From positions 53,463,001 through 53,527,000 of the forward strand of contig JAQMRL010000006.1 of assembly GCA_035578175.1 (NCBI GenBank): a DNA stretch of 64,000 bases, written 5' to 3'. Positions within the stretch are counted from its first letter, which is position 1, and each line of letters begins with the position of its first letter. Position numbers and translations under genes: made by a program. This document shows positions 1,443-63,421 of the stretch, one piece after another. This DNA comes from Catonia carolina (Eukaryota; Arthropoda; Insecta; Hemiptera; Achilidae). The notes beneath the pieces were generated by a model. It saw only the letters and a program-made list of their open reading frames with translations. It was not told the origin of the DNA and ran no database searches.

Positions 1443-1835
1443 TTGTTGTTTAGGTCAACAGCCGAAAGGCTGGTTTGAACCTCTAGAGGTTTTACTAAGT
1501 AAAACGAGGAAGAGGTGGTTTACCATGCTTTCCTCACTGAATGGAAAAGTATGCTTATCAGCATGCCGGGCCCTCTGAAAAGCACATATTTTCCACTCTT
1601 TAAATGACACCTTCACTTCATTCACCACAGGGTCTGGCTGTACAATGAAATTCATTACTTTCAGAGGAGATAACTCTGATTAGTGTCTTTTACATCTCTA
1701 CCTCTTCTGTTCTTAAATGATTCAATCATTTAATTGGCTGACCATGTGATAAGAAACAGAACTATTTATTTTAGCCCTGCAACGAACAGATTGAGTGTAA
1801 ATAATTTGACACTCCACCTGTCTGTTATTGGCAGG
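1443..1835 (-). mobile_element. SINE-A copy, inserted in unit 2 of the tandem duplication
   Basis: This is a near full-length minus-strand copy: the (GTT)n tail complement is at 1443 and the complement of CTGCCAATAACAGACAGG ends it near 1835. The TSD GTACTACAATG occurs at 1432-1442 and 1836-1846. The 72-codon frame seen in other copies is frameshifted here after about 45 codons. Confidence 0.85.
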
Positions 1836-9720: not shown

Positions 9721-9954
9721 AACACAAGAATTGGTGCAAAGAAATGACACATTTTTGTGTTTAACGTAAGATTACTTCCATAAATGGTAAATAAAGGTGT
9801 ATTTTTTCTTAAATAAATTTGTAGAAAATTTAATTCTGAAAAGATTCATGTGAATTACTCAGGAAAAAAATGAATAATAAATATTGAAATTTCGCTTTAT
9901 TTAAAATCAAAACAGACGCACATATAACGCACATTCTTAACTGCATAAAATATT

Positions 9955-10000
9955 AGGTTGGGAGTAACAGCTGATCATTATCAGCTGTTACTCCCAACCT
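9955..10000. repeat. Perfect 21 bp inverted repeat (hairpin)
   Basis: Arm 9955-9975 begins AGGTTGGGAGTAACAGC and is perfectly complementary to 9980-10000 across a 4-base loop, CATT. It lies directly upstream of Helitron-like sequence. It may be a terminal structure of that element or an independent palindrome. Confidence 0.95.
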
Positions 10001-10715
10001 ACATATTAGTTAATATAATATGTATTTGTATGTTCCCCTTTATCTCCTAAATTACTGAACCAATTTTCATGCAGTTTTTTTATGTTGTAACTATGATGCC
10101 GGTGCAGGTTTTAGGCTATTGAAACCCTTAAAAAATTAGCCCTAAAGGGTTGAAAATAATGTTTATGTCCTACATTAAGGCTTTTATGAGGTTAGATAAT
10201 CTGCTGCTTTTAAACCAGCTGATGTGATTCAAATAAAGATTAGTCATAAAGTCATATGATTTAGTAAATAGCAACGTGGTGCTAAGGATCAGCTGGTGAC
10301 GTCACATGATAATTTTATTGTATTTTATTATGTAGATACGATTTTGTATAGTTGAGTATTTTATAAAAGTAAAGTTCCGTGTTTCTTTAATTTGTTTTAA
10401 TTTTCTTTTAATTGGTGAGTGATCAATTGCCTTGATATTTTATTTTTATTTTTATTTTATTCAACGTAGATTTAAGTTTTTGGTTTCGATAATTATTTTT
10501 TGTATGGTTATTTTTTTATTTTTTTCCATTTTCAATAATGCCATCAAAAAAAAACATCACTAGGAAGAAAATTTCAAAAGCAAAATAAACTTCAAAAAGC
10601 AAGAACTGCTGAAACTGAGGAACAATGAGAATCTCGCCAATTTTTCTGCTACATATTTAAAAAAAAAAGTGATTATACCATTTTCCGCGTGCAAAGCCGC
10701 GACGGGGCATGCTAG
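10001..10715 (+). mobile_element. Helitron-derived fragment with 3' end
   Basis: The 3' end reads GCGTGCAAAGCCGCGACGGG then GCATGCTAGT: a GC-rich hairpin followed by CTAG (10712-10715), matching the CTRR terminus of Helitrons. Upstream text such as CTCCTAAATTACTGAACCAA resembles insect Helitron interiors. At about 10560-10650 a decayed frame gives QNKLQKARTAETEEQ then ESRQ, like the start of Helitron replication-helicase proteins. The 5' TC end was not located. Confidence 0.7.
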
Positions 10716-17905: not shown

Positions 17906-18317
17906 GTACCATCAATCGTAGTTGTTGGTTAGGTCATCAGACTAAAGGCTGATTTGAACCTCTATAGGCTTTGCTAAATAAAATGAGGAGTGAGGTGATT
18001 TACCATTGGCTTCCTCACTGAGTGGAAAAGCATGCTTATCAGCATGCCAGGCCTCTGAAAAGCTCATATTTTTCACTCTGAAAACATTTTCACTTAATTC
18101 ACCAAAGGGTCTGGCTCTACAATGAAATTCATCATGTCATCTTTGCCCCCTTTGATTAAGTACTGTGCTGCCGGCTATCAAAGGTTCCGTCGTAACGACA
18201 GAGAGAGCAGCCAATAGTTCCGAGAGGGGTGGTAGGCTTGTGGCAGCGTACCGACAGAGGCCTTTGTCATCAAGGCCAAGACCAATAACCGCCCTCTACC
18301 ACAGCGCTTTCGGCAAC

Positions 18318-18326
18318 TATATAAAG
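18318..18326 (+). promoter_or_regulatory. TATA box of solo LTR copy 1
   Basis: TATATAAAG followed by AGCCGCTACACTGAG. The same motif lies at the same relative place in the other two copies, so transcription would start about 30 bases downstream. Confidence 0.8.
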
Positions 18327-18720
18327 AGCCGCTACACTGAGCCGAAAAAAATTCAATTCCGATCCAGACAACAGACAAGACGACCGCCATCGGCAACACG
18401 GCTACCGGACCCCAGCGAAGACTAATCGACGACCCCGCAAGGGAGAAGATGATGCTTCCGCTCGCCGACCCGTCACCGTAATCCGTCGACCGGACCGTCA
18501 TCGCCCGCTGACGCGAGCGATGCCCACAGCGGTCCCTCGACCGAGCCTTACACCCACCGGACCCGACGAAGCAACTCAAAAAAAAAAATGTCATCGACGC
18601 ACTACTGCGAGAGAAGAAGATTATGTCTCCGCTGGACGACGGCACGCCGTGTCGCCCAGCTCCTCGACCGCCACGTCGACTACGACCGACACTTCCCATC
18701 AAAACGACCACCGCTTAAAC

Positions 18721-18736
18721 GGCCCTTTTCAGGGCC
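18721..18736 (+). terminator. Histone-mRNA-type 3' stem-loop in LTR copy 1
   Basis: GGCCCTTTTCAGGGCC forms a 6 bp stem with a TTTC loop, preceded by TTAAAC and followed by ACCAAAA. This is the canonical metazoan histone 3' element bound by SLBP (established). It lies 51 bp before the LTR end. A purine-rich U7 site downstream is not clear (GTAAAAG is the best candidate). Confidence 0.85.
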
Positions 18737-18892
18737 ACCAAAATGTAAAAGTTTCAACCCGGCACTTAATGTCGCCATCCGGTGACAATTACTTTCAGAG
18801 GAGATAACTCTGACTGGTGCCTTTTACAACTCTACCTCTTCTGTTCTTAAATAATTCAGTCATTTAATTGGTGATCATGTGATAAGAAACAG

Positions 18893-19785: not shown

Positions 19786-19822
19786 CTAGTACACTGGAAT
19801 TGGTACATAATGAAGTGTTATT

Positions 19823-20217
19823 CTGCCCATAACAGACAGGTGGAGTGTCAAATCATTTACACTCAATCTGTTAGTTGCAGGGCTAAAATAAATAGTTCTG
19901 TTTCTTATCACATGGTCAGCCAATTAAATGACTGAATCATTTAAGAACAGAAGAGGCAGAGGTGTAAAAGACACTAATCAGAGTTATCTCCTCTGAAAGT
20001 AATGAATTTCATTATACAGCCAGACCCTGTGGTGAATAAAGTGAAGGTGTCATTTGCAGAGTGGAAAATATGTGCTTTTCAGAGGGCCCGGCGTGCTGAT
20101 AAGCGTAGTTTTTCACTCAGTGAGGAAGGCAAATGTAAACCACCTCACTCCTCGTTTTACTTAGTAAAACCTCTAGAGGTTCAAACCAGCCTTTCGGCTG
20201 TTGACCGAAACAACAAC
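19823..20217 (+). mobile_element. SINE-A, full-length reference copy
   Basis: 395 bp from CTGCCCATAACAGACAGG to GACCGAAACAACAAC, with a perfect 11 bp TSD GAAGTGTTATT (19812-19822, 20218-20228). Internal landmarks: ATAGTTCTGTTTCTTATCAC, AGACACTAATCAGAGTTATC, CAGCCAGACCCTGTGG and the CCTCTAGAGG palindrome. Near the 3' end a small AGCC-TTTC-GGCT hairpin is followed by the (AAC)n tail. No clear tRNA, 5S or 7SL head is seen. The variable-length AAC tail and TSD imply LINE-driven retroposition. Confidence 0.92.
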
Positions 20218-28835: not shown

Positions 28836-28978
28836 TGTCACCGTTGTCCCCTTTGATCAGACACTGTGCTGCCGGCTATCAAAGCTTCTGATTTAGCGAT
28901 AGAGGAAACCGCCAATAGTTCCAAAAGGGGCGGTAGGCCTGTGTCGGCACTGCAGAGGGCTTGTAACTCACTGGAGAC

Positions 28979-28987
28979 TATATAAAG
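28979..28987 (+). promoter_or_regulatory. TATA box of solo LTR copy 2
   Basis: TATATAAAG followed by AGCGCTCCACCGAG; the same context as in copies 1 and 3. Confidence 0.8.
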
Positions 28988-29557
28988 AGCGCTCCACCGA
29001 GCCCGAGGGGATTCGATTCTTATCCACTCGACAGCAGACAAGACATTCATTCACCATCGGCTTACGGCTACCGGACTCCAGCAAAGATTCATCGACGACC
29101 CCGCAAGAGAAAAGATGATGCTTCCGTTCGCCGACCCGACAACGTAGCCGTCGACTAGGACCGTCATCGCTCGCTGCCACGAGCGATGCGCACATGGTCC
29201 CTCGGCCGAGCCTTTACGCCCACCGGATCCGACGAAGCAACCATCTACGCACTACTGCGAGGGGTTTTCACTCCGCTGACAACAACACGCCGTGTCGCCC
29301 AGCTCCTCGACCGGCACGGCGATTACACTCTACATCTCCGACCACGATCGACCGACTACATCCACGGGATAAAGAAAGAAAATGCTTTGGAACTTGCAGC
29401 AGCCGTCGCCGCAGATCTCGCATCCACGCACTGCCTAAACCGGTCTCCTTCGAGACCAGCACAACGATCCTTCTCAGAACCAACTGGTTAAGTTTTTCAC
29501 CGGCCCTTACAGGGCTATCAACCAACTCTGTCCGCCCCGGCGGACACACACATAAAC

Positions 29558-29573
29558 GGCCCTTTTCAGGGCC
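29558..29573 (+). terminator. Histone-mRNA-type 3' stem-loop in LTR copy 2
   Basis: GGCCCTTTTCAGGGCC with CATAAAC before and ACCAAAA after, 48 bp from the LTR end. Identical to the loops in copies 1 and 3 although the sequence around it has diverged. Confidence 0.85.
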
Positions 29574-29756
29574 ACCAAAAAGTACAGGTTTCTAGCCTCT
29601 TAATGTCGCCATTTGGTGACAGTGTATATAATATAATTTGAATTGCATTTGCCCTTAACCCTGCGCTTAGTTCATATTAAAATATATTTTGGGTTTAAAA
29701 CCAATTTTTAACAAAATGTACCAAAACTAATGTTTTTTTTTTTGGTTTTGGAATTT

Positions 29757-30364: not shown

Positions 30365-31655
30365 TTACTTTCTCTTAATATGTATGAAAAGTATAGTATA
30401 CGGAAAGAAAGTATTGTTTCTTATAGATTTATCGAAATTTTCATCGGATGTACACGTTTTCAGGCCCCTGGACCCAAAAACCATGTGTTTTAGTGATTGG
30501 TCTATGTGTGAACAAAATATCTCAAGAACGGAATATCGTACGAAGTTGAAACGTGGAACTTAATTTCGGTACCACTACAGGACCCGACACGAACATTTTT
30601 ATCAAAATCGATCACCTGGAAGTAATAGTTTATTCGTGTAGTTTTTACTTTTTTGCGATTTTCTCAAAAAAGGCTCCAACGATTTTTTTAAAAATCACCT
30701 CATTTACTACATTTTATGCTCTACAATATCGGGTAAGCGTCTGATGAAATTCTTGGGGAGCCTGTGCTCATGTGGTAAAAACTGTTTTTTGTTTTATGAT
30801 GGTAGGTATACAATCAAAGTTGTAGAATATTGAAATACCTACAACTTATATTTCAAAAACTTTTTCTGCAACGCTTAGTAAAGTAGAAATTAATGATTTT
30901 CTGTATTTTGCTCATCAAAATCGGTAAAAAGGAGTTTTTTTTTAAGATTGCGGCTTTAGTATGCACTTTAGGGAAAAAGTTTATATAATAAAAGTTATAG
31001 GAAATTAAAAAACTTACAACTTTTATTTCAAATATTTTCTTCTACAGAACCTAGTTTGCGTCAATTAGTGATTCTCTCTATTTTTAAGTTTTAGAGGTTG
31101 ATTTACATTTTGCATCATTCACTCGTAATTAAAAATAGATTACGTTTTACATTTTCCATTGTTTACTCATTATTAAATCCCGGTCCATCATCCGAGGCAT
31201 CATGAGGTTTGCCAGTAGTTAAGAAAATCCTCTGGCCACGTTACGAGCGCTGCGCAGATTAAGCTCATTATTGGGATTACCACATCACTGCATATATTAT
31301 GAGCCTGCAGGACAGTTCCTTCGAGGTGCCGCTCTAGGTTCTTCCGCCTCCTCTTCCGTTAGAAATATCTTCCATATCCGCCTTCGGAGCGGTACCATCT
31401 TCACTAGGTTTTGTCCACCCTGAGTATTTTATTTCCTCAGCACTCTCTAACAGAATTGACGAGTGTCCCCCATAGCCAGGAGTGGCCCCCGATAGCAGAC
31501 CCAGCAACAGCCACAGGAGAGAACTAGGATGCCCGAGAAAGAGATGGGCAGATTTGAAAGATTCGGAACAGGCAGAAGAAGACTAATGATTAAACATATT
31601 TTATGTTTTATTATTTTCATTGGCAAGAAAAACTATGCGACTGTTTCACACCAAA
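30365..31655 (+). mobile_element. TG element lacking (TG)n, with an insertion
   Basis: The left end CTTTTTACTTTCTCTTAATA is near 30361 and the right end ATTGGCAAGAAAAACTATGCG near 31619. The core is present, but at the usual microsatellite position it has only GTCTATGTGTGAACAAAATA. A foreign segment lies at about 31175-31590. Confidence 0.75.
31175..31592 (+). pseudogene. Degraded LINE 3' fragment inside the TG element
   Basis: The end reads CPRKRWADLKDSEQAEED (with a frame change), matching the minus fragment at 12726-12870. The upstream 300 bp is GC-richer than its surroundings and has no clear frame. It interrupts the TG element between ATTGTTTACTCATTATTAA and TAATGATTAAACATA. Confidence 0.5.
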
Positions 31656-34190: not shown

Positions 34191-34359
34191 TCTGCTGTCA
34201 CCGCCACCCCTTCTAATAAATCATTTACTGTGTTGCCGGCTTCAATAGTTCTTCCGGCCTTTCACGGCATAGCGACAAAGCTTTCGGCTGCACACCGCAA
34301 AGGCCTTTGTCATCAAGGCCAAGCCAGTCGCCGCTCTCTACAACAGCGCTCTCGGCAGC

Positions 34360-34368
34360 TATATAAAG
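34360..34368 (+). promoter_or_regulatory. TATA box of solo LTR copy 3
   Basis: TATATAAAG followed by AGCGCTGCACTGAGCC, shared with copies 1 and 2. Confidence 0.8.
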
Positions 34369-34765
34369 AGCGCTGCACTGAGCCAAATCGATTCAATTCC
34401 AATCAAGACACCGAGAGCTTCACTTCGAACCAGACAGCAGACAAGACGTCCACCACCGCACACGGCTGCCGGACTCCAGCGAGACTAATCGACGACCCCG
34501 CAAGAGAGAAGATGATTCTTCCGCTCGCCAACCCGTCACCGTAAGCCATCGACCGGACTGTCATCGCCCGCTGACGCGAGCGATGCCCACAGCGGTCCTT
34601 CAACCGAGCCTTACGCCCACCGGACCCGACGAAGCAGCCATCGACGCACTACTGCGAGGGAACAAGATGACGTCTCCGCTGGACGACGACACGCCGTGTC
34701 GCCCAGCCCCTCGACCGCCACGACGACTACGACTGACGCCTCTCCAAGACGACCACCGCTTAAAC

Positions 34766-34781
34766 GGCCCTTTTCAGGGCC
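34766..34781 (+). terminator. Histone-mRNA-type 3' stem-loop in LTR copy 3
   Basis: GGCCCTTTTCAGGGCC with CTTAAAC before and ACCAAAA after, 45 bp from the LTR end. Confidence 0.85.
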
Positions 34782-34829
34782 ACCAAAATTATAAGGTTAG
34801 CCACTTAACGTCGCCATCCGGTGACACTG

Positions 34830-36795: not shown

Positions 36796-37185
36796 AACGT
36801 GGGTGATAGGGGCTGTAGAAAAGAAGAGGATAGAAGATTTTGATATGTGTTGTTATAGGAAAATGTTAAAGATTAGGTGGGTAGACAAAATAAGTAATTT
36901 AGAGGTTCTTAGGCGAGTGGATGAAAAAAGAAGTATATGGAAGCATCTTACCAAAAGAAGGGGTGGGCTAGTGGGGCATATACTAAGACATCCAGGTATT
37001 GGGCTATCAATAATGGAGGGTAATATTGAGGGAGTTAATAGTAGGGGGAGGCAAAGATTAGAATATAGTATAAAGCAAATTACAAAAGATTTAGGGTGTT
37101 ACAGGTATGTAGATATGAAACGACTTGCGCAAGATAGAAAGGTTGGAGAACTGCATCAAACCAGTCGAGAGACTAATGACAAAAA
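36796..37185 (+). pseudogene. LINE-alpha, 5'-truncated insertion with perfect TSD
   Basis: The TSD AGGTATAAAGAGA is exact at 36783-36795 and 37186-37198. The insert is ~390 bp; its frame reads VIGAVEKKRIEDFDMCCYRK, MLKIRWVDKISNLEVLRRVD, EKRSIWKHLTKRRGGLVGHI and GRQRLEYSIKQITKDLGCYR, ending ETNDKKG. It is the last ~125 residues of ORF2, with one indel near the end and an A-tail. Exact TSD and open frame point to recent insertion. Confidence 0.9.
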
Positions 37186-37199
37186 AGGTATAAAGAGAG

Positions 37200-38080
37200 A
37201 GACACACTCCTTATACGCACGCTTCTACGTAGTGCGTGTACAGTCATTTTGATCTGTTTGGTGTACAGTATAACGTTTGGTAAAGTCCAGGACTTTCTTA
37301 GTTTGCTCCTACTGACAACAAATAATGACGTCACTGAGCATGCGCATTATATAAAAATGAGTACACGCTGATTAAAAAGTAACAACAAAATACTTTCTAA
37401 AGTATTAAAATACAAAATACTTTTAAAAATAGTTTTATAAATGATATTAGGCGTACATCAAATCATGACTGATATTTTAAGTACTTTAAGTATTTATAAT
37501 TTAAAATATAGTTAACTGAATCGGATTACGACATCCATAAAGTCGTGGACCCTAGCGTGCACTTCGTAATAGCTGGCTTTGGTTTGTTGACTGTAGGAGC
37601 AAACTAAGGACGGCTGAACTTTTGTAGAAGTTTTCTTATTTTTCATTTTGTTTTTTATCCGATCATTTGTTTTTAGTTGTTTTTTGTTTTGTTTTTTTAT
37701 ATACGCTATGAATGATGTTATATACGTTAAGGGTACATCGTCTGTACAAATAACCAAAAATCAGCGCAGGACTTATTACTAATTTTAAATTAATCATAAT
37801 CTTATTAACTACGTGGAAAAGACATCCACCAAATAAACAAAAAATTCTAAATGCTAATTAAATAGTAAGTGTAATCAACGTATTTGTTTGTAGGCCTACG
37901 GTAATTTTTTCTTATAAAATAAAATATTTTCAAAAACATACAAGTTCTGTACTTGAAATTTGTTTTCTTAGTTTTGATCATAATTTTCCTGATGCAGATT
38001 AAATGCGGGTGTGGCTTGTTTTCGGAATATTACGGTAGTATGTAAGTAAACATTATTTACATAAAAAAAATATTCGGATA
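37200..38080. other. Unassigned; imperfect inverted repeat 37300-37605
   Basis: CTTAGTTTGCTCCTAC at about 37299 is complementary to GTAGGAGCAAACTAAG at about 37591, with a further TGACAACAAA / TTTGTTGA extension. This could be a small foldback element. Otherwise AT-rich. Confidence 0.45.
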
Positions 38081-38086
38081 TTTTTT

Positions 38087-39249
38087 GTTATCCCGCCAGC
38101 ATAATTTTTCACATTTTGTGAATATTTCGTATGCAACCTTACAGTATTTTAAACGATAAAAACGGGAAAAATATTTAAAAAAATCCTACACCGATATTCT
38201 TCAAGTTAAGGTAGGGTAAATAATTTGCTTTTTCTCAAGATTGTTACTGTACGTAATAATGAAAAATATGAACTCAATGAGTACATAATATCATGAAATT
38301 AATTTTTTTTTGTCATCAGTCTCTCGACTGGTTTGATGCAGTTCTCCAAGCTGTTCTATCCCGCGCAAGTCGCTTCATCTCTACATACCTGTAACACTCT
38401 ACATCTTTTGTAATTTTCTTTATATATTCTAATCTTTGCCTCCCCCTACTGTTAACTCCCTCAATATTACCCTCCATTATTGATAGCCCAATACCTAGAT
38501 GTCTTAAGGTATGCCCCACTAGTCTATCCCTTCTTCTGGTAAGGTGCTTCCAAATACTTCTTTTTTCATCCACTCACCTAAGAACCTCTAAATTACTTAT
38601 TTTGTCCACCCACCTAATCTTTAACATTTTCCTGTAACACCACATTTCAAAAGCTTCTATCCTCTTCTTTTCTACAGCCCCTATCATCCACGTTTCACTC
38701 CCGTATAATGCACACAAAGTGTGTAGTACTACACTCCAAACATAATGGTTTAAGAAATTTTTCCTAATCTGTAACTCAATGTTTGTAGTCAGTAAGCTGT
38801 TTTTTATTTCAAAGGCTTTTCTAGCTTGAGCAATTCTGCTTTTGATATCACTTGTGCTTCTACCATCCTTTGTTATTTTACTCTCTAGATAGCAGAATTC
38901 CCCAACTTCCTGTATGTTTTCGTTGCATACTTTTACATTTCCCATCTCTTCTAAACCACTCTTGCTGCTGCACAACACTTTCGTTTTATTTTTGAATTAA
39001 TTTTTGAAATGATTGAAATTAATTTAACATAATTAAATTAAATATTATTAAATCATTTAATAATTATCAATAAATAGTTTAAGGTTAACTTGAAAAAGGA
39101 AAAACTTTAACGTTAACTTAAAAAATATTGATGTTATATTATTTTTTATGATATTTTCCCGTTTTTATCGTTAAAAATACTATAAGAATTCCTACATACG
39201 AAATATCCACAAAATATGAAAAATTATTCGGGGGGGGGGGGCGGATAAC
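38087..39249. mobile_element. Foldback/MITE with ~90 bp arms, split by LINE-alpha
   Basis: Arm 38087-38176 (ATAATTTTTCACATTTTGTG ... AACGATAAAAACGGGAAAAA) is complementary to 39150-39249 (TTTTCCCGTTTTTATCGTT ... CACAAAATATGAAAAATTAT). GTTATCCCGCC and GGCGGATAAC mark the outer ends. The right arm contains a run of 12 G near 39230. The centre carries a LINE-alpha insertion. Confidence 0.75.
38309..38991 (-). pseudogene. LINE-alpha ORF2 C-terminus (~220 residues), one stop
   Basis: Minus-strand frame from 38978: GNVKVCNENIQEVGEFCYLE, SKITKDGRSTSDIKSRIAQA, RKAFEIKNSLLTTNIELQIR, LYGSETWMIGAVEKKRIEAF, EMWCYRKMLKIRWVDKISNL and EVLR, stop, then VDEKRSIWKHLTRRRDRLVG to ASNQSRD. The stop at about 38574 is TGA where the copy at 36796 has CGA, a CpG-type change. 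TSD-like TGAAATTAATTTTT / TGAATTAATTTTT flanks it. The RT palm is missing (5' truncation). Confidence 0.88.
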
Positions 39250-39789: not shown

Positions 39790-40345
39790 GTCAGTCTCTC
39801 GACTGGTTTGATGCAGTTCTCCGAGCTGTTCTATCTGCGCAAGTCCTTTCATATCTACATACCCGTAACACCCTACATCTTTTGTAATTTGCTTTATATA
39901 TTCTAACCTTGGCCTCCCCCCTACAATTCACTCCCTCAATATTACCCTCTATTATTGATAGACCAATAACTGGATGTCTCAAGATATGCCCAACCAGCCT
40001 ATCCGTTCTTCTGGTAAGATGCTTCCATATACTTCTTTTTTCATCCACTCGCCTAAGAACCTCTAAATTACTTATTTTGTCCACCCACCTAATCTTTAAC
40101 ATTTTCCTGTAACACCATATTTCAAAAGCTTCTATCCTCTTCCTTCCTACAACCCCTATCACCACGTTTCACTCCCGTAAAATGCTGCTCTTCAAAAATA
40201 TAATTTTTTAAGAGTTTTTCTTAATCTGTAAGCCAATGTTTAAATAGTCAATAAGGTGTTTTTTATGTATAAGGCTTTTCTAGCGTGAGTTATCCTACTT
40301 TTGATATCACTTGTGCTTCTACCATCCTTTGCTATTTTATAATGT
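39790..40345 (-). pseudogene. LINE-alpha ORF2 C-terminal fragment
   Basis: The minus frame gives MVIGVVGRKRIEAFEIWCYR, KMLKIRWVDKISNLEVLRRV, DEKRSIWKHLTRRTDRLVGH and ILRHPVIGLSIIEGNIEGVN, then a shifted end (ERTCADRTARRTASNQSRD). Upstream sequence up to 40345 matches the I-K-S-R part with more damage. 5'-truncated. Confidence 0.85.
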
Positions 40346-45027: not shown

Positions 45028-45425
45028 GTTGTTGTTGTTTAGGTCAACAGCCGAAAGGCTGGTTTGAACCTGTAGAGGTTTTACTAAGTAAAACGAGGAG
45101 TGAGGTGGTTTACCATTGCCTTCCTTACTGAGTGGAAAAGTACGCTTAACAGCATGCCGGGCCCTCTGAAAAGCACATATTTTCCACTCTGCAAATGACA
45201 CCTTCACTTCATTCACCACAGGGTCTGGCTGTATAGTGAAATTCATTACTTTCAAAGAAGATAACTCTGACTAGTGTCTTTGACACCTCTACCTCTTCTG
45301 TTCTTAAATGATTCAGTCATTTGATTGGCTGACCATGTGATAAGAAACAGAACTATTTATTTTAGCCCTGCAACAAACAGATTGAGTGTAAATAATTTGA
45401 CACTCCACCTGTCTGTTATGGGCAG
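45028..45425 (-). mobile_element. SINE-A, full-length
   Basis: 398 bp with a 10 bp TSD ATATTTATTT (45018-45027, 45426-45435). Three or more GTT units at the tail. The 72-codon minus frame from 45246 (MNFTIQPDPVVNEVKVSFAE) is open. Confidence 0.92.
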
Positions 45426-45564
45426 ATATTTATTTAAGGTTAGGAATTAATAGAAATTTGAGGAAGTGGTAGGCATTTCGTATATTTAAGCTGAGTTAAA
45501 ACGTATAGTATTCTTTAGTTGACTTTATCAATTAATCCACCAGCATAATTGAAAATTTTTTGGC

Positions 45565-46432
45565 AACGACAAGAAAACAGAGAAAATGAAAATAAATAAA
45601 GGCGTACGACAAGGCTGTCCAATGTCTCCGATGCTATTTAATATTTACATTGATAAGATTTTAACAATTCGAATCAATTAATTGACTCAGGCATTCAGCT
45701 TTGGAATAATGTATTCCTGAATATTGCTGTACACAGATGACACTGTTATTATTTTTGACACAGAAGACAGGCTCCAATATGTCATTTATAAGTTACACAA
45801 CATTAGCGCAGAATTTGGCATGGGAATATCGGTACAAAAATCAAAAAGTATGGCATTCAAGGGAAGATGGCCAGTTCGCTCAAAAATTATACATGGCAAC
45901 CAAACTATAGAACAAGTTCGAGGCTTTAAATATTTAGGATGTAAGATTTTCAATGACAAAAATGATGACGTGAGTGAAAAACTGGCAAAATTCAGCGCTG
46001 TCTGCGGTTCTATTCGCAGGACAATAGAAAAGAAAACGAGAAATGACACCCAAATGAAATTTTATAGAGCAATGGATGTACCACTCATAACACATGGGAG
46101 TGAAACATGTGTGTCATTACAGAGGAATGAATCTCGTATCCAGGCTGCTGAAATGAGATTTTTGCGGGGAGTCAAAGGTTGTACCCAGTTAGATAGAGTA
46201 CATAACGAAGCTATATGCAGCGAGTTAAATATTCACTCACTCTGTGAAACGTTAAGAAGATATACGAGGAGAAACTGGTCCAACCATTTACTTTGCATGC
46301 CAGCGCACAGACTTCCTCTGCGAGCATGGAAATATAAACCTAGAGGGAAGCGAGGCTTGGGAAGACCTAAAAATAGATAGATGCCGGAACAGGCCATAGA
46401 ACCTAGTCCTTGACAGATGAAAAAACCAAAAA
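45565..46432 (+). pseudogene. LINE-delta reverse transcriptase, C-terminal half
   Basis: It begins in the RT palm: MKINKGVRQGCPMSPMLFNI then YIDKIL (motif B, G-x-x-Q-G-C-P-x-S-P). After a shift it reads LLYTDDTVIIFDTED, where YTDD stands for the catalytic YADD box. Then AEFGMGISVQKSKSMAFKGR, VRGFKYLGCKIFNDKNDDVS, VPLITHGSETCVSLQRNESR, IQAAEMRFLRGVKGCTQLDR and YTRRNWSNHLLCMPAHRLPL, then GKRGLGRPKNR. The frame from 45724 is open for 218 codons. The N-terminal RT and endonuclease are missing; an A-rich tail follows. Confidence 0.88.
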
Positions 46433-62477: not shown

Positions 62478-63421
62478 CAGGGTGTTTCATAATGTTCTTC
62501 TGGGTTACAAAAATTCAGTAAAAAAAACTATTTCACTTACCAAATGAAAGTTGTACGGGCCAATGCAGGGACTCAAACAGTTATTTTTAAACATCTACAA
62601 ATATTCGATGTGTGGTCCTTTGGTGACACGGCACACGAGATGATTTCTTTCGGTAGAATTGCATTGATTATGCGATCCTTCAGCTCAGCGATGTTGTTTA
62701 GGTCATCAGCCGAAAGGCTGGTTTGAACCTGTAGAGGTTTTACTAAGCAAAACGAGGAGTGAGGTGGTTTACATTTGCCTTCCTCACTGAGTGGAAAAGT
62801 ACGCTAATCAGCATGCTGGGCTCTCTGAAAAGCACATATTTTCCATTCTGCAAATGACACCTTCACTTCATTCACCACAGGCTCTGGCTGTATAATGAAA
62901 TTTATTACTTTCAGAGGAGATAACTCTGATTAGTGTCTTTTACACCTCTACCTCTTCTGTACTTAAATGATTCAGTCATTTAATTGGCTGACCACGTGAT
63001 AAGAAACAGAACTATTTATTTTAGCCCTGCAACGAACAGATTGAGTGTAAATAATTTGACACTCCACCTGTCTGTTATGGGCAGTAGCTCAGCGATATCG
63101 TTCGGCATTGGTGGGATAAACACCTTGTCTTTCACATAACCCCAGAGAAAGAAGTCACATGGCGTGAGGTCTGGTGATCTTGTTGGTCACAGTATAATTG
63201 AAATTCGTGAAATTCTAACACACAAAACGACTTTTCGCTTCCCGTGGGAGCCATTTTCTCTATTGTCTACGCCGAGCGGGCAAACGGTTAACTAACTGCC
63301 CAAAATATGTGGAAAAAACTATCTGAAGTGCTCTTTTTTACAGTACTTGTTTCATTCTTATAGCTGGATTACTGTTTTTGTACTGAATTTTTGTAACCAA
63401 AGTACATTATGAAACGCCTTG
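62478..63421 (-). mobile_element. Mariner-like element, internally deleted, split by SINE-A
   Basis: Ends CAGGGTGTTTCATAATG at 62478 and CATTATGAAACGCCTTG to 63421, flanked by TA. The minus strand carries SPDLTPCDFFLWGYVKDKVF then IPPMPNDI, interrupted by SINE-A, then AELKDRIINAI. This is the C-terminal half of a mariner-type transposase found widely in insects; its third catalytic Asp lies in SPDL. The N-terminus and the other catalytic residues are missing. Confidence 0.88.
62693..63085 (-). mobile_element. SINE-A, full-length, inside the mariner-like element
   Basis: The TSD AGCTCAGCGAT is exact at 62682-62692 and 63086-63096. Tail of two GTT units; the 72-codon frame is nearly intact. 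Confidence 0.93.

Follow-up and report, generated by a model that had tools for sequence, protein, structure and literature searches.

How does the RNA of a retrotransposon end when its long terminal repeat (LTR) carries the stem-loop of histone messenger RNAs (mRNAs) where a polyadenylation signal normally lies? The question is raised by three GC-rich elements in a 64,000-nucleotide stretch of contig JAQMRL010000006.1 (positions 53,463,001 to 53,527,000; hereafter the window): copy 1 (18135-18787, 653 bp), copy 2 (28836-29621, 786 bp) and copy 3 (34196-34826, 631 bp), all on the plus strand. We read them as solo LTRs of one retrotransposon family in which SLBP/U7-type cleavage, and not polyadenylation, would set the boundary between the repeat (R) and unique 5' (U5) regions, and we put the probability of this reading at about 0.6. 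An earlier note on this DNA had described the three elements, and we found them at its coordinates, with the TATA box, the stem-loop and its placement as claimed. Of its interpretation, the LTR-like mobile element and the histone-type stem-loop (by covariance model) stand, and freedom from poly(A)-signal-like hexamers holds in three of four full-length copies, the fourth copy coming from elsewhere in the same genome.

The elements are mobile LTR-like units. Each window copy runs from TGTCA to TGACA and is flanked by a 4-bp target site duplication (TSD), exact in copy 3 (CTGC/CTGC) and with one mismatch each in copy 1 (ATCA/ATTA) and copy 2 (GTAT/GTGT), in agreement with the earlier description. 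Copy 3 has a perfect 8-bp terminal inverted repeat, TGTCACCG/CGGTGACA, which we read from the sequence. BLAST against 250 kb sampled from this genome (loci L001-L025, from one contig of 439 Mb and one of 36.8 Mb) recovered one further full copy, L003 (1169-1847, minus strand, 679 bp, TSD AGTG/AGTG), and one decayed relic, L008 (4865 to about 5154, minus strand; nhmmer E 2.7e-8 over the last 73 bp); copies are denser in the window (three) than in this sample. The TGTCA and TGACA termini and a 4-bp TSD occur in 4/4 full-length copies, two of the TSDs being exact and two having one mismatch, and the duplicated sequences differ between copies. L008 aligns well only over the loop and the 3' end, which is kept and reads CCATCCAGTGACA; no 5' end could be recognised in this relic.

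Copy 1 lies in a dispersed repeat, which it splits. Once its flanks are joined, 18 paralogues in the window span the junction, and in the 17 of them that we aligned as empty sites the target reads ATTA (16/17) or ATCA (1/17). Because of these empty sites, copy 1 can be taken as a 653-bp unit inserted exactly at its TGTCA and TGACA ends; the insertion duplicated 4 bp, and one of the two duplicates changed afterwards. For copies 2 and 3, the joined-flank search found no paralogous empty site within the window. Insertion as a unit thus follows from the empty sites of copy 1 together with the TSDs of all four full-length copies. The window copies share 72-82% identity over long BLAST-aligned stretches, and 75-85% over the ungapped columns of a multiple alignment. 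Their GC content is 0.55-0.575, against 0.345 in the whole window. The CpG observed/expected ratio is 1.12-1.27 in the LTR copies, 0.84 in the window and 0.85 in the sampled loci; in the decayed tail of L008 it is 0.24, as if CpG had been lost with age.

All three window copies contain the exact 16-mer GGCCCTTTTCAGGGCC followed by ACCA (stem-loops at 18721-18736, 29558-29573 and 34766-34781). It lies 51, 48 and 45 bp before the LTR 3' end in copies 1, 2 and 3, which confirms the spacing of 45-51 bp given in the earlier note, and the stem-loop falls within this range in 5/5 copies seen. It is exact in three of them and has one changed base in L003 (C-to-T, leaving a G-U pair) and in L008 (GTCCCTTTTCAGGGCC, G-to-T, followed by ATCA). 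AAAC precedes the stem in all four full-length copies, where ACCA follows it, and also in L008; one C separates the three adenines from the stem, and the Rfam consensus reads AAA at this place. The Rfam model Histone3 (RF00032) matches copy 3 at 34761-34806 with 35.2 bits (E 1.6e-6), above the gathering cut-off of 34, and the 6-bp stem and 4-nt loop of the histone consensus fold in all three window copies. No further match to the 16-mer was found in the window at up to three mismatches; in 100 shuffles the mean was 0.20 matches, and one shuffle reached 3. Ten human histone stem-loop variants have a first-order Markov expectation of 1.2e-4 matches in the window on both strands. These matches amount to roughly a single independent event, given the homology of the three copies.

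Published histone ends offer further points of contact. A passage of PMC7807067 lists GGCCCTTTTCAGGGCC as one of the stem-loops for which human histone genes were searched, and the minimal SLBP-binding RNA, as described in an excerpt from PMC10388802, has two 5' adenines and one 3' adenine. In our copies CA ends 4 nt past the stem, and a passage of PMC6303110 reports major histone cleavage at CA 5 nt past the stem. The stem-loop suggests, and does not yet prove, that the RNA of the parent element ended by the histone route. Outside the window, a Histone3 scan of 210 kb of the sample (L001-L021) gave no match at the gathering cut-off, and in L002-L008 at E up to 1 the sole match was the L003 copy. 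Viral, bacterial and archaeal collections (four DNA patterns on viral contigs and one GTDB scan) gave 0 matches, which says little, as the genome of the window may lie outside them.

The earlier note had stressed that the 16-base loop is identical in the three copies. This is so, and the invariant stretch is longer: in a three-way alignment with 390 of 543 ungapped columns identical, the longest invariant run is the 28-nt block TAAACGGCCCTTTTCAGGGCCACCAAAA (18716-18743, 29553-29580 and 34761-34788, plus strand), with a permutation P of 0.011. When L003 is added and mean identity is used as the measure, the block is still the top 28-column window, at P 0.064, so that conservation of the block is suggested by three copies and less clearly by four. 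The block is also kept where its 5' neighbour is replaced, as in copy 2, where at least about 200 bp of sequence private to this copy lie immediately 5' of it, or is hardly alignable, as in L008. Constraint gains weight from this persistence beside the private stretch and in a decayed copy, and these patterns suggest, without proving, that the block is under constraint.

A TATA box followed by the stem-loop is found in 4/4 full-length copies (TATATAAAG in three, at 18318-18326, 28979-28987 and 34360-34368 on the plus strand in copies 1, 2 and 3; TATAAAAAG in L003), which would correspond to the order unique 3' (U3), R and U5. If transcription starts 30 nt past the TATA box and the RNA is cut 5 nt past the stem, both of which are assumed boundaries, U3/R/U5 measure 213/394/46 nt in copy 1, 173/570/43 nt in copy 2 and 194/397/40 nt in copy 3. 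We scanned for 12 poly(A)-signal-like hexamers from the presumed start to the LTR end. None of them occurs in copies 1, 3 and L003 (3/4 full-length copies), and all four full-length copies lack both AATAAA and ATTAAA in their presumed R-U5. The earlier observation that no AATAAA lies near the loop thus holds for the window copies; an AATAAA does exist in copy 3 at 34215, upstream of the TATA box. Just past the presumed start, a short tandem unit (GATTCAATTCCGATCCAGA-like) is seen in L003 (about 1558-1636, minus strand) and in the window (about 34385-34438), with, by eye, about three units in L003, two in copy 3 and one in copies 1 and 2.

Any U7 site would lie in the presumed U5, which in copy 3 spans 34787-34826 (plus strand; 40 nt, from 5 nt past the stem-loop to the LTR end). 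The sequence after ACCA is AAATGTAAAAGTTT in copy 1, AAAAGTACAGGTTT in copy 2, AAATTATAAGGTTA in copy 3 and AACAGAAAAGGTTT in L003. Where the earlier note had suggested looking for a U7-complementary site, there is only a short A/G stretch, AAAAG(G)TT-like, about 10-15 nt past the stem. According to a passage of PMC7026596, the histone downstream elements (HDEs) of Drosophila are AU-rich and their pairing with mammalian U7 is poor, and the host's own U7 is therefore needed to judge the U5 site.

In the mechanism that we propose, RNA polymerase II would start about 30 bp past the TATA box, and the transcript would be cut about 4-5 nt past the stem-loop by the SLBP/U7 machinery, with no polyadenylation, which would give an R of about 395 nt (570 in copy 2) and a U5 of 40-46 nt. 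In LTR elements, a tRNA primes the minus-strand strong-stop DNA, which is copied from U5 and R and then transferred to the R at the 3' end of the RNA; this step can do without a poly(A) tail. Minus-strand transfer would need matching R ends only, so that a histone-type end would fit the LTR life cycle. SLBP is made mainly in S phase, and full-length element RNA would therefore accumulate then. The loop would also be present in the transcript from the 5' LTR, where the element would have to escape early cutting, as must retroviruses whose R contains a poly(A) signal. The start site, cleavage, SLBP binding, coupling to S phase and an autonomous parent are thus features that we infer. We see about an even chance that an LTR retrotransposon lineage swapped its poly(A) signal for a histone stem-loop, with tail-less genomic RNA that is produced and translated alongside histone mRNAs during S phase, and with an R that ends at the SLBP site. 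Were this the case, the family would represent a class of non-histone mRNA on the histone route, with reverse transcription timed with DNA replication; annotation and RNA-seq that rely on poly(A) would miss it, and its copies would provide natural replicates in which the SLBP/U7 signal could be dissected. Among the matches listed in open-licence papers there was no report of a histone stem-loop in an LTR, and a description elsewhere is possible.

Several findings weigh against SLBP/U7-type cleavage in a solo LTR. Copies 1 and 2 score below the Rfam cut-off of 34 (32.3 bits, E 2.1e-5, and 31.2 bits, E 5.2e-5), as does L003 (24.8 bits, E 0.015), and L008, whose base change breaks one stem pair, is not matched by Histone3 at E up to 1. 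Next to the stem the copies carry C instead of the A of the Rfam consensus. No compensatory stem changes are seen among the copies, in which the stem hardly varies, and the conservation test weakens with the fourth copy, as given above. AAAGAG, the purine core that mammalian HDEs offer to U7, is missing from the U5 in all four full-length copies, and the proposed mechanism presumes an animal host with SLBP and U7, which is an assumption. Copy 2 has CATAAA at -7 and three weaker hexamers, GATAAA at -190 and AAGAAA twice, and L008, in which the scan covered the 290-bp tail, has AATAAA at -7 from the stem-loop and AATGAA at -104. The hexamers at -7 in these two copies speak for a dual or regulatory use, in which SLBP binding to the stem-loop would serve export, translation or stability, or the stem-loop would give some of the 3' ends, the others coming from a poly(A) signal close to the loop or outside it; dual histone and poly(A) ends are described for H2A.X (PMC7807067) and for H2AC18, there via a polyadenylation signal that overlaps the HDE (PMC9756948). 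We nevertheless regard such use as unlikely here, given that copies 1, 3 and L003 lack the hexamers between start and LTR end and that the AATAAA of the heavily decayed L008 may be mutational.

It also counts against the proposed family that the window showed neither a full-length element nor paired LTRs around a primer-binding site, gag, pol and a polypurine tract. Pfam searches with 10 of the 11 window open reading frames of at least 120 amino acids gave only RVT_1 (28.1 bits, under the cut-off of 29.6), and a scan of frames of at least 45 amino acids for reverse transcriptase, integrase, protease and gag motifs gave six rows at five places, isolated and without a cluster, one of them inside the LTR of copy 2. 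Because no internal region was seen, the LTR identity rests on the ends, the TSDs and the layout. The lack of an internal region, the 8-bp terminal inverted repeat of copy 3 and the occurrence of each full-length copy as a single unit (631, 653, 679 and 786 bp) would also suit a small element of another kind, such as a non-autonomous DNA transposon, which captured the 3' end of a histone gene and a promoter. We consider this improbable: the TGT...ACA ends, the 4-bp TSDs of differing sequence and the placement of TATA box and stem-loop as in U3-R-U5 argue for LTRs, of which solo LTRs are the usual relic. A coding reading of the LTRs was rejected, as their two long frames (18178-18711, minus strand; 29194-29595, plus strand) match no Pfam family, histones included, and this also argues against a captured histone gene. 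Still less credible is a chance hairpin with another role or none. GC-rich LTRs often fold, the motif has about one independent origin, and the folding energies only moderately beat those of shuffled sequences (4, 9 and 0 of 200 shuffles fold equally well in the three window copies), but the Markov expectation for the stem-loop with ACCA behind it is 5e-7 in the window, the flanks match too, and the loop is kept across diverged copies.

If read as solo LTRs with a histone-type end, the elements combine features of known systems. With the 3' end of replication-dependent histone mRNAs (RF00032; SLBP, U7 small nuclear ribonucleoprotein, CPSF73) they share the identical 16-nt stem-loop, the 5' adenines, ACCA and a downstream stretch that would hold a U7 site. 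They differ from it in that the loop sits in a mobile unit, no histone gene was seen with the loop, there is no clear AAAGAG-type HDE and processing is predicted here. With LTR retrotransposons of the Ty3/Gypsy or BEL/Pao type they have in common TG...CA ends, short inverted termini, a 4-bp TSD, a TATA box in U3, a presumed R and a short U5. In such elements a poly(A) signal usually defines the R/U5 boundary, whereas here the histone stem-loop stands at that place. The nearby poly(A)-like hexamer in L008 and copy 2 is reminiscent of histone genes with two kinds of end, such as human H2AC18 and H2A.X and the bdelloid H2A variants, for which a passage of PMC2642717 describes genes with both. Those are cellular genes, in contrast to the elements, of which 3/4 full-length copies are without a hexamer.

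Two further hairpins resemble the histone stem-loop. Copy 2 alone has a second, imperfect one (core at 29502-29515, plus strand), which reads GGCCCTTACAGGGCT followed by ATCA, starts 56 bp before the canonical loop and is perhaps a decayed duplicate of it. A sub-threshold Histone3-like match at 30676-30722 (27.4 bits) was rejected, being an A/T-rich stem of another repeat in which five aligned paralogues differ; the hairpin is partly common to the paralogues of that repeat family.

The dispersed repeat that hosts copy 1 is about 400 bp long and abundant in the window (19822-20217, 45031-45426, 62689-63084 and others), and it contains a motif, GGTTTGAACC, which we take to resemble a tRNA-type box B. 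By eye, 45724-46380, 36803-37252, 38574-38978 and 39791-40165 look like broken reverse transcriptase fragments of long interspersed nuclear elements, of which only 45724-46380 gives a Pfam match, the sub-cut-off RVT_1 hit. Finally, a near-palindrome at 9949-10007, with a weak microRNA-precursor score on both strands, is probably a small inverted-repeat element.
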